From contig CAMDTN010000016.1 in NCBI GenBank assembly GCA_945907755.1, positions 1 to 49,893 on the forward strand: a stretch of 49,893 nucleotides of DNA, written 5' to 3'. This stretch comes from Singulisphaera sp. GP187 (GTDB lineage Bacteria > Planctomycetota > GCA-002687715). Shown here piece after piece: positions 22,676-25,956 of this stretch. Under the pieces are notes generated by a model. The model saw only the letters and a program-made list of their open reading frames with translations. It searched no databases and had not been told where the DNA came from. The position numbers and the translations under genes are program-made. Within the stretch, counting starts at the first letter, position 1, and every line of letters begins with the position of its first letter.

Positions 22676-23101
22676 ATGCCCAACTTCAAACTGGAACTGG
22701 TCACCCCGGACGCCACGGTCTTCAGCGGCGAAGTGACAACGCTCACTGCACCTGCCGAAGGCGGACGCTTGGGGATCCTCGCTGGCCACGCGCCGCTGTG
22801 CTGCACGATCAGCCCTGGCGAAGTGGTGGTGCGCGAGGCGAGTGGGGCCACGCGCAGTTTCATGGTTGGCGATGGGTTTCTTGAGATGGCGGCGGACACC
22901 TGCCGCATCCTCGCTTCGGTGGGCGAGCCCGCGGATGCCATCGATCTCGCACGTGCGGAAGCCTCAGAGCGCCGCGCCCGCGAACGCTTGAAGGCCCACA
23001 CGGGCCAAGACTTCGACCTCGCCCGCGCGGAAGCCGCTCTCGCACGCGCTGTCGTGCGCCTCAAGCTCGGTCGCGACCGCTCGCAGCGCCGCCCGCACTA
23101 A
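22676..23101 (+). CDS. atpC: F1Fo ATP synthase subunit epsilon
   Basis: 141 residues, starting three bases after atpD. Epsilon regulates and couples the rotor. The N-terminal beta-sandwich is clear: 'LELVTPDATVFSGEV', 'LTAPAEGGRLGILAGHAPL', 'VVREASGATRSFMVGDGFLE'. The C-terminal helical hairpin is present ('LARAEASERRARERLKAH', 'DLARAEAALARAVVRLKLG'), so an inhibitory two-helix arm is probably functional. It is the last gene of the operon; a strongly folded non-coding region follows. Confidence 0.95.
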   Translation: MPNFKLELVTPDATVFSGEVTTLTAPAEGGRLGILAGHAPLCCTISPGEVVVREASGATRSFMVGDGFLEMAADTCRILASVGEPADAIDLARAEASERRARERLKAHTGQDFDLARAEAALARAVVRLKLGRDRSQRRPH

Positions 23102-23103
23102 TC

Positions 23104-23171
23104 GCGCTCGCACGCGATGCTGCGTGTGCCCAGTCTTGCATTGCGCTCGCAGGCGACGCTGCGTGTGCCCA
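23104..23171. repeat. Two tandem 29-base imperfect direct repeats after atpC
   Basis: Copies at 23104-23132 and 23143-23171, a 39-base period, both beginning GCGCTCGCA and ending CTGCGTGTGCCCA, with two internal differences. The second copy overlaps the left arm of the large inverted repeat described next. No other copy was noticed in the window. Confidence 0.7.
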
Positions 23172-23404
23172 ATAGGCGCTCGGCCGGTCGGGCGAAGACG
23201 ACCGGCTGCCGCACCCATTGGGACACACTCCGCTTCCGCCGACGCCGCAACCGTTGCTGTAGCCGCAACGCTGGGCATGGGCATGTGGCCGAGCGGGCGG
23301 ACGGGCGCCCTGAGGTCGAGGGCGGGACGAGCGTTGCATCAGAGCAACGGACCGCCCGAGACCGTATCCAGGGCGCCCTTGAGCCTGCGAGCGCAATGCA
23401 AGAC
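23133..23404. repeat. 272-base nested inverted-repeat region between atpC and motA
   Basis: A perfect 22-base inverted repeat (23133-23154 with 23383-23404) encloses three further stems. Hairpin A: 23163-23173 with 23217-23228 (11 pairs, one bulge) capped by GCCGGTCG/CGACCGGC (23183-23190 with 23199-23206). Hairpin B: CGTTGC/GCAACG (23252-23257 with 23265-23270). Hairpin C: GGGCGCCCTG/CAGGGCGCCC (23303-23312 with 23369-23378), continued by GGTC/GACC, GGGCGG/CCGCCC and CGTTGC/GCAACG. No protein gene was recognised here and no T-tract follows. It could be a structured RNA, a REP/BIME-like repeat, a transcript-stabilising element or a small non-autonomous mobile element. The gene-free gap continues to 23554. 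Confidence 0.7.
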
Positions 23405-23466
23405 AGACCGCGTGCGGCCAAAGCCTGCGCGCAGAGGCGGGTTTGCGGAGGATGACGCGGCAAGCC

Positions 23467-23495
23467 TTCAGATGCTGGAAATGTGCGCCGATAGG
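23467..23495 (+). promoter_or_regulatory. Candidate promoter for the motA operon, sigma-28-like -10
   Basis: GCCGATAG at 23487-23494 matches seven of eight bases of the flagellar sigma-28 (FliA) -10 consensus GCCGATAA. The matching -35 region (around 23468-23475) is poor. A sigma-70 reading, TTCAGA (23467-23472), 17 bases, GATAGG (23490-23495), is weaker. Position about 60 bases before motA suits a motility promoter. A small hairpin GGAGG/CCTCC lies at about 23516-23531 in the leader, and the motA ribosome-binding site is GAGGGA (23542-23547). Confidence 0.35.
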
Positions 23496-23554
23496 AAGCC
23501 TGAGACTTTGTCCGAGGAGGGTCTGTCCTCCAAGGCCGGTCGAGGGAAGACGGC

Positions 23555-24346
23555 ATGGATCTTGCGACAATCATTGGCAGTGTGATCGGAGCCGTAACCG
23601 TGGGCTTCATCATGGTCCACGAGAGCCACGGCGCGCTGTACCTGTTCTGGAACATGTCAGCGGCCATCCTCATCACAGGAGGGTTGATCTCCGCCGTCAT
23701 GATCTCGTTCAAGATGTCTCATGTGACAGCGATGATGGGCATCGTCAAGCGCTGCTTCGTCTATCCGCTGCCCGAGACTGCGGAAGTCATCGAGCGCATG
23801 ACCGAGTACGCAACGCTGGCGCGCAAAGAAGGGCTGCTCGCACTGGAAGAAAAATCCAAGGATGTGAAGGACCCGTTCTTCTCCAAGGGCATCATGCTGG
23901 TTGTCGACGGCTACCCAGCAGACTCCGTGCGCCAGATCTTGGAAGTGGATGTCGAGGTGATGAAGGAACGCCACACCGTCGGCAAGAAAATGATGGAGAA
24001 CATGGCGGGTGCTGCACCGGCCTTCGGGATGGTGGGCACATTGCTCGGCCTTGTGGCCATGCTTCAAAACATTTCCGATCCGTCGAAGATCGGTGCCGGT
24101 ATGGCAGTGGCTTTGTTGGCCACCTTCTACGGCTGCGCACTGGCGAATTGCGTATTCATTCCATTGGCTTGCAAACTGGACATGCGCACCAAGGAAGAAG
24201 CGCTGATTCGCCAACTCATGATCCAAGGTGTTCTCGCCATCCAAAGCGGCGACAAGCCGCAAGTGGTGCGCGAGCGTCTCAAAGCATTCCTGTCGCCTGC
24301 GCAGCGCAAGCTGGTAGGCGCTGACAACCCACAACAGGGAGGCTGA
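23555..24346 (+). CDS. motA: MotA-type stator/proton channel subunit
   Basis: 263 residues with four membrane helices (about 1-20, 28-50, 148-170, 182-205). MotA forms the five-subunit ring of the flagellar stator that converts ion flow to torque. Visible signatures are 'LARKEGLLALE' (the cytoplasmic segment with the rotor-facing charges), 'GAAPAFGMVGTLLGLVAML' with the conserved proline, and 'GAGMAVALLATFYGCALAN'. This is closer to MotA/PomA than to ExbB or TolQ because of the long cytoplasmic loop. Start ATG 23555 has GAGGGA seven bases upstream. The next gene follows after three bases. No other flagellar genes occur in the window. Confidence 0.88.
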   Translation: MDLATIIGSVIGAVTVGFIMVHESHGALYLFWNMSAAILITGGLISAVMISFKMSHVTAMMGIVKRCFVYPLPETAEVIERMTEYATLARKEGLLALEEKSKDVKDPFFSKGIMLVVDGYPADSVRQILEVDVEVMKERHTVGKKMMENMAGAAPAFGMVGTLLGLVAMLQNISDPSKIGAGMAVALLATFYGCALANCVFIPLACKLDMRTKEEALIRQLMIQGVLAIQSGDKPQVVRERLKAFLSPAQRKLVGADNPQQGG

Positions 24347-24349
24347 CGC

Positions 24350-25051
24350 ATGTGCGGTGGTGGTGGCGACGGACCAGGAGCCCCGCTCTGGATCGTGTCC
24401 TTCTCGGACATGGTCGCGAACTTGGTCACATTCTTCATCATCCTCGCGTGCTTCGCGGGTAGCGAATCGGGCGGTCCCGCGCAGGTCACCAAGTCTGGCG
24501 TGGGCGTGCACGGCACGCAGCAGACTCCGCCGGCAGGGGCGTTGGTGCAACGCGCAAAATCGTCTGATGCGATTTACGCCACAGAAGGATCGGAAAGTCC
24601 ATCGGAGCGCGCCGAAACAGCATTGGATGAGGCGCTGGACAAGTTGGCCACTCCAGACAACTACGACACCAAGCCTGATATTGAAGCGCTGCAAGGGGGC
24701 CTGCGCATCCGGCTCGCGGCGGAAGGCATGTTTCGCCCCGGCTCCACTTCAATGACCGAACACGGGCTGATCTTGGTGCGTGAAGTCGGCAGCTTCTTCC
24801 GCGGCGAGCTATGTGAGTACACCGTTGAAGGGCACACCGATAGTGGTGAAGGCGACACGCCCGGGGCTGCTTTTGAACGCTCGCTGCAAATGGCCCGTGG
24901 CGTTGCACGCGGATTGGTGGGCTCAGGTGTCGAACCGTTTCGTGTGGGCATTCGCCCGCAAGGGTCGACTGTGCCGTTGGGCGCCAATGACACAGCCGCC
25001 GCACGCAGGCGCAATCGGCGCATCGAAATCTTGGTGCGGAGGACTCCGTGA
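24350..25051 (+). CDS. motB: MotB-like stator protein 1 (OmpA domain)
   Basis: 233 residues. The single membrane helix 'APLWIVSFSDMVANLVTFF' starts at residue 11 and carries Asp20, the ion-binding aspartate of MotB. A flexible part (40-100) follows. The C-terminal OmpA-like peptidoglycan-binding domain reads 'EYTVEGHTDSGEGD', 'FERSLQMARGVARGLVGSG' and 'RRRNRRIEILV', keeping the GHTD and NRRIEI signatures. The cytoplasmic N-terminus is very short and starts MCGGGG. The stop overlaps the start of the second MotB gene (GTGA). With MotA it would form an ion-driven stator anchored to the cell wall. Confidence 0.85.
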   Translation: MCGGGGDGPGAPLWIVSFSDMVANLVTFFIILACFAGSESGGPAQVTKSGVGVHGTQQTPPAGALVQRAKSSDAIYATEGSESPSERAETALDEALDKLATPDNYDTKPDIEALQGGLRIRLAAEGMFRPGSTSMTEHGLILVREVGSFFRGELCEYTVEGHTDSGEGDTPGAAFERSLQMARGVARGLVGSGVEPFRVGIRPQGSTVPLGANDTAAARRRNRRIEILVRRTP

Positions 25052-25956
25052 GCACGGGGCACAACGCAACACACGGACCAGGTGCAGACACCGCACTAGT
25101 GGATGCTCCAAGCAGCGACGCAGCGATTGCGCCAGCAGCGGAAACTCACGACAACGGTGGCCACAAGCACAGCGAGCAGGCTGCGCATGAGGAACACGCT
25201 GGCGGCCATGGTGGAGGCCACGGAGGTGGTCACCGCAAGAAGCATCATGCCCCAGACGGCGCACCACCGGGCGCTCCTTTGTGGATGCTGAGTTTCGCGG
25301 ACATGATGACCAACCTGCTCACTTTTTTCATTCTCATGGCGGCCTACACCAAGAGCGACATGGGCATTCAGTTCGATGATTTCATCGGATCAATCAAGCA
25401 GGATTTGAGTCCGGTGTCGCTGTCAGGCAGTGGGCTTGGGCACGACACAGCGTTTCAGTTCGGCGCGGGTCGCGTTGTTTACCGCGGCGCGAATCCGGTG
25501 AACACCGAAACGCTTGTGGAAGCCGGTGGCGGCATGACCAACTTGAATCGCGACCGCCTGCGCGAAGTGCTGGTGCATTCCATGGCTGGGGCCGGCGAAC
25601 GCACGCTGCCCACACCCATCTTATTTTCGCCTGGTGACAGCGTGCTCAGTGCAGGGCAAATGGAATTGCTGCAGCAACTGGGTTCGATGCTGGCCATGGG
25701 CAACTACCCCGTCAAGGTTGATGGCTACGCTTTCGCCGAAGGCTCGGATGTGGATGCGGGCTGGGAACTGTCCACGCGTCGCGCATTGGCTGCAGGCAAT
25801 GTGTTGGAGGCTTCCGGCGTGGCACGCGAGCGCCTCGCCATCACGGGGCATGGCATGTTGCTGCAAGGTAAATGGAGTGGCATCGAAGGCGCGGCGCTGC
25901 CGCAAAACCGCTACGGCCGCCGGTCGGTCTTAATCACTTTGGGAGAGGAGCACTAA
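25048..25956 (+). CDS. MotB-like stator protein 2, with His-rich N-terminal extension
   Basis: 302 residues from GTG 25048, overlapping the first MotB stop. A 75-residue cytoplasmic extension rich in His and Gly ('HEEHAGGHGGGHGGGH', then 'KKHHAP') precedes the helix 'APLWMLSFADMMTNLLTFF' with the ion-binding aspartate at residue 85. The C-terminal half keeps an OmpA-like outline ('ILFSPGDSVLSAGQMELL', 'WELSTRRALAAGNVLEASG', 'NRYGRRSVLITL') but GHTD is replaced by 'GYAFAEG' and the NRRVEI motif is altered. It may therefore bind the wall differently or not at all. The tandem pair suggests a mixed MotB dimer or two alternative stators; the His cluster might bind metal. Both are inferences. Confidence 0.8.
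   Translation: MSTGHNATHGPGADTALVDAPSSDAAIAPAAETHDNGGHKHSEQAAHEEHAGGHGGGHGGGHRKKHHAPDGAPPGAPLWMLSFADMMTNLLTFFILMAAYTKSDMGIQFDDFIGSIKQDLSPVSLSGSGLGHDTAFQFGAGRVVYRGANPVNTETLVEAGGGMTNLNRDRLREVLVHSMAGAGERTLPTPILFSPGDSVLSAGQMELLQQLGSMLAMGNYPVKVDGYAFAEGSDVDAGWELSTRRALAAGNVLEASGVARERLAITGHGMLLQGKWSGIEGAALPQNRYGRRSVLITLGEEH

Follow-up and report, generated by a model that had tools for sequence, protein, structure and literature searches.

The window is a stretch of 49,893 nucleotides, contig C16 of a draft genome (G000) of 2.68 Mb in 94 contigs; all genomes compared here are drafts, and the range of the repeat family is stated for the genomes searched. Genes were placed with a simple codon model that had been trained on eight genes of the window. 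The gene atpC ends at 23101 and a MotA/PomA-like gene starts at 23555, both recognised by Pfam and NCBIfam. Gene calling places no gene in the gap 23101-23555, in agreement with an earlier note on this DNA that saw no protein gene there. The gap holds a composite structure that starts right at the atpC stop codon and has the following parts.

23101-23132, + strand: incomplete copy of the arm that flanks hairpin A; it forms the first unit of a tandem repeat and is 91% identical to 23140-23171 over 32 nt.
23133-23154, + strand: left arm of an inverted repeat; the same arm flanks hairpin A elsewhere in the genome (exact copy on C7, 19 of 22 positions on C5, near copies on C21 and C81).
23156-23235, + strand: hairpin A, a member of a genus-wide family, of the short-loop type with loop GGCGAAGA; recovered by covariance model R2, built without hairpin A (E 7e-4 per genome, 36.7 bits); homologues on C5, C7, C21, C6 and C81.
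23229-23301, + strand: second hairpin, from folding; a segment also present in other composites (C23:1377-1458 is 87% identical, and C7 and C6 carry shorter matching stretches).
23303-23378, + strand: third hairpin, from folding, with tandem GA mismatches (z = -5.4 for 23297-23386); the right arm recurs on C81 (23353-23412 is 97% identical to C81:168-227), and BLAST of the left arm against its own genome found no copy elsewhere.
23383-23404, - strand: right arm of the inverted repeat, which is the repeated flank turned the other way; also found on C81 and C7.

The earlier note described most of this arrangement correctly. The inverted repeat is a perfect match over 22 nt (23133-23154 / 23383-23404) with 228 nt between the arms, and folding places three hairpins inside it, at about 23163-23228, 23229-23301 and 23303-23378. 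The ten-pair GC stem reported there exists at 23181-23190 / 23199-23208, with one of its ten pairs being G-U, and the two tandem repeats, given as 29 bases, extend over 32 nt (23101-23132 / 23140-23171, spacing 39), the left arm overlapping the second copy. The interval first described takes in the composite and misses its left part, 23101-23132, and a recurrent tail to about 23412. The absence of a T-tract stands as well: between 23101 and 23500 neither T nor A occurs four or more times in a row. Folding, proposed as a check, returned z about -10 for either strand: the minimum free energy of the + strand is -177.5 kcal/mol (z = -10.2, 0 of 200 shuffles as good), the - strand folds equally well (z = -10.7), and the sequence folded as DNA gives z = -8.0.

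Parts of the region recur by BLAST at about ten other places in the same genome, on contigs C5, C7, C21, C6, C81, C23, C58, C2 and C12. On C5, C7 and C21 hairpin A is accompanied by its flanking arm, and the C6 and C81 copies do not have the arm directly attached; C23, C7 and C6 carry the middle segment, and C81 and C7 the right end. Because the copies are modules, the 22-nt inverted repeat is one repeated flank occurring twice in opposite orientations. The tandem repeat is a further part copy, and the region as a whole is a mosaic of modules. Contigs C81 and C58 end in the same 46 nt, which lie inside such a module; additional copies are therefore probably places where the assembly breaks. 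A second module, with loop GTCGGATGCACTCCAAC, occurs 11 times in the window's own genome and eight times in the sister species G001 when one mismatch is allowed. The single named record that contains the loop sequence is Planctomycetota bacterium Baikal-deep-G176, assembled from a Lake Baikal metagenome, which places the organism of the window in the Planctomycetota. A repeat some 225 bp long, with about 91% identity between its two copies, is present at both the C5 and the C7 locus (L009 1-229, L010 624-880) and includes a terminator-like hairpin; a tRNA-Pro gene lies near each locus.

The hairpins of the wider family are built alike, with an apical stem some 8 bp long and 3x3 mismatches in phase; most copies also share a single conserved apical loop. 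The mismatches (TCC, TGC or TAC on either side), as read by eye, break the stems about 17 nt apart. The near-constant loop is carried on stems that are wholly different yet paired, such as GCCGACCG/CGGTCGGC, GCAATCCG/CGGATTGC and GCATTCCG/CGGAATGC; in G002, the second sister species and the third species of the genus, the stems differ again, and most copies have a loop with the core TCGGATGCACTC. Covariation was scored on 14 hand-picked hairpins, twelve chosen by loop sequence and two by fold energy, with chimeric and contig-edge copies excluded, an exclusion that favours paired stems; the score was 0.325, against 0.154 +- 0.017 in shuffles and at most 0.160 with slid partners, with double changes in 13 of 24 pairs. 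The G001 and G002 sets also covary (0.329 against 0.194 and 0.125 against 0.069), a result to be read with caution because the model itself aligned them. A model of hairpin A only, R1, was too uniform for covariation to show.

When pairing is selected in a loop-sense RNA, G-U pairs are expected to clearly exceed A-C mismatches. The ratios of G-U pairs to A-C mismatches in the three sets were 22:10, 27:27 and 10:10, and any excess in G002 is at most weak. With G-U (59 in total) hardly above A-C (47), the counts do not demonstrate selection at the RNA level. These counts and the mixed orientation of the loop relative to genes, described below, point to an element maintained or spread as DNA more than to an RNA that works from a single strand; a transcript end indifferent to strand may also be compatible with both.

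Covariance model R2 was built from the 14 hairpins, none of them from the window, and run on 31 genomes. It found 15 matches in the window's own genome, 24 in G001, one of which is the opposite strand of another match, and 25 in G002. The other 28 Planctomycetota genomes, three of them of the same family, gave no match at E <= 0.1. The matched core spans 78-123 nt, and conserved flanks extend beyond it. Window hairpin A and its homologues on C5, C6, C7, C21 and C81, recovered by the same model, keep the apical stem and the mismatches and have the short loop GGCGAAGA in place of the conserved apical loop TCGGATGC-CTC-AA. In hairpin A the model recognises the apical stem, the spacing of the 3x3 mismatches and the outer stems. 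Membership rests on this architecture and on the composites they have in common with long-loop copies on C6, C7 and C81. Two tandem hairpin copies on C8 of G001 (L145 15123-15316), 105 bp apart and identical in the matched core, point to a recent local duplication.

BLAST against 58 relatives returned only chance-level matches outside the window's own genome; it took the loop pattern and the covariance model to reveal the family members of the sister species. A match at C9:44932 lies beside a tRNA-Gln gene and was not counted. Neither exact-pattern scans for the apex of hairpin A in the genome and viral contigs nor BLAST of the element against phages and plasmids found anything; a single loop match on a viral contig, without a hairpin, was taken as chance. 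An ungapped palindrome scan misses known copies because these contain bulges. The curated models of Rfam 15 gave only sub-threshold, implausible matches at the element, and a search of the open-licence literature turned up no account of such a family in Planctomycetota.

Copies of the family prefer convergent gaps and sites near stop codons, and they avoid promoters. For the 52 copies with both neighbours called, 20 lie in convergent, 28 in tandem and 4 in divergent gaps, whereas in the base sample of intergenic gaps (at least 20 or at least 50 nt) 11-13% are convergent and 24-28% divergent. Fisher's test gives p of about 2e-5 or less for the convergent excess and 0.01 or less for the divergent deficit. 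Of the 28 copies in tandem gaps, 22 are closer to the stop codon upstream than to the start codon downstream (p = 0.002). All p-values are approximate, as copies within one array are counted individually and two of the three species contributed to the base sample. The loop lies in sense orientation to adjacent tandem genes in 9 of 11 cases in G001, in antisense orientation in 6 of 8 in the window's own genome, and is mixed (5:4) in G002.

Comparison of orthologous sites shows turnover. The C7 copies are missing in G001, and one G001 copy is missing in the window's own genome (L106 versus L133). Two slots, the C12 convergent gap and the atpC-motA gap, hold different family members in these two genomes, the atpC-motA copy of G001 being L224 (R2, E 4.5e-9); among the matches listed for G002, none falls in its atpC-motA gap. 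Such presence and absence is the pattern from which mobility is inferred, and loss could also explain it. As regards the features of a MITE, inverted arms are present, an unsystematic search found no autonomous transposon that shares them, and the flanks show no obvious target-site duplication, the empty sites in the sister species being too diverged for junctions to be read.

What usually defines REP-like repeats is a conserved sequence together with a terminal tag and a RAYT transposase. The present family is held together by structure, with stems rewritten within and between sister species. REPs are multi-copy intergenic palindromes, found chiefly in gaps between convergent or unidirectional genes and on the downstream side of genes, and their subfamilies carry alternative complementary stem residues (PMC3733652); the genus family resembles them in each of these respects. 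It differs in its size of about 90-120 bp, against 20-40 bp for REPs, in lacking a terminal GTAG/CGTC tag, in that no RAYT was detected in two of its three carriers, and in the long conserved apical loop and phased 3x3 mismatches of most copies. Since three REP features failed (size, tag and RAYT), the family is designated REP/BIME-like rather than REP. With BIMEs it has in common composite arrays with hairpin modules and arms in both orientations, but its modules are not REPs by size and tag, and the mosaic has no demonstrated fixed alternation of units. Stem-loop (SLS) repeat families are likewise intergenic and defined by a common predicted stem-loop (PMC2267715), whereas structure and loop are what identify the genus family in its three species, whose stems differ, and it is not among the SLS families given for other organisms in that paper.

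We consider it probable that the region is a composite of genus-restricted, imperfect palindromes of about 90-120 bp, subject to REP/BIME-like dispersal, recombination and loss in intergenic DNA. The REP-type element that the earlier note had listed among its options has held up in this form: the sequence is multi-copy, intergenic and palindromic, prefers 3' ends, shows compensatory stem changes, and is present or absent between sister species. The note had named a single copy, without a transcript and drifting freely with no compensatory changes, as an argument against a repeat family or an RNA; the genome-wide search found many copies, and the covariation analysis found compensatory changes in the stems. 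For its option of a small mobile element, presence and absence at orthologous sites speak in favour; neither a transposase nor a target duplication was found, and the classical link of REP to RAYT does not hold. Copies would spread as non-autonomous DNA, possibly through an enzyme recognising the hairpin in its single-stranded form. Those inserted close to promoters would be purged, leaving copies behind stop codons, and recombination between arms could produce the mosaics. A transcript leaving the ATP-synthase operon would end in or cross a structure of about -178 kcal/mol, and this very stable 3' structure, if transcribed, would hinder exonucleases; fewer transcripts may then run on into the flagellar motor gene. 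The element at atpC probably acts as a passive 3'-end hairpin. The family is small and searchable, and so lends itself to asking what disperses palindromes and whether gene-end hairpins in Planctomycetota are parasites or recruited transcript ends.

A more novel reading, which we consider less likely than not, is that of a maintained or mobile palindrome in which a factor would recognise the apical loop and the phased 3-nt mismatches, the stem sequence being free to vary provided that the two arms change together; it would spread without a RAYT and possibly also serve as a bidirectional transcript end.

On balance unlikely is a genus-specific family of bidirectional terminators or mRNA stabilisers under selection, which would end or protect transcripts from either side, its slots being refilled by whichever copy is available. 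In its favour are the marked enrichment of copies in convergent gaps and directly after stop codons, a positional bias that selection for a terminator role could also yield, the different members found in the C12 and atpC-motA slots of two species, the maintained stem pairing, and the G001 copies, which often end in CACTTTTGCC and lie mostly in sense orientation. The composite resembles an intrinsic terminator in being a G+C-rich hairpin behind a stop codon, but it is longer and multi-part, and the window copy has no U-tract; T-tracts are likewise missing from the G002 flanks. Few convergent gaps in the sampled stretches appear to hold a copy, four copies lie between divergent genes, and a separate T-rich terminator-like hairpin adjoins the C7 copies.

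That 23133-23404 is a discrete structured RNA, either a small RNA or a cis-regulatory element, is very improbable. The structured RNA suggested by the earlier note does draw on extreme fold stability and covariation within the family, but no Rfam family matches, orthologous sites do not preserve the entire composite, both strands fold equally well, G-U pairs do not clearly outnumber A-C mismatches, and orientation to genes varies between species.

The window's own genome contains two RAYT-like Y1 transposase genes, one passing and the other missing the PF01797 cut-off, which match NF047646 at 50 and 48 bits (cut-off 80). RAYT-like copies, some of them partial, are located at C7:43884-44573, C1:144590-145270, C15:2380-2838, the starts of C28 and C47 and the end of C17 (L230, L232, L234), with identical pieces at three contig ends. 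RAYTs are usually single-copy, so an active relative may be present. A classical REP mobilised by these enzymes, which their presence and partial copies would favour, is nevertheless largely refuted and hardly credible: no family copy adjoins the two RAYT loci examined, G001 and G002 have about 24-25 copies each with no RAYT or Y1_Tnp detected, and no conserved GTAG or CGTC foot was found in the flanks of their copies.

In G001 the 3' flank of many copies closes with GCGCTCACTTTTGCC, a brief run of T that the G002 copies and the window lack. Downstream of the composite, the motA-like gene has a promoter-like motif of its own, GCCGATAGG at 23487-23495, upstream of the gene; it is kept in G001 and nearly so in G002 and presumably resembles the -10 element of a flagellar sigma-28 promoter. 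Two consecutive MotB-like genes with MotB_plug and OmpA domains come after the motA-like gene (24350-25048 and 25048-25953). The octamer ATTAGTGC is about sevenfold over-represented in the window's genome (46 sites in 450 kb) and CATTAGTGC about 13-fold, while the octamer is under-represented in G001 (2 in 400 kb). Its sites occur in genes and gaps, also near both RAYT-like genes; those in the window are at 2917, 23095 and 25950, one of them overlapping the atpC stop codon.
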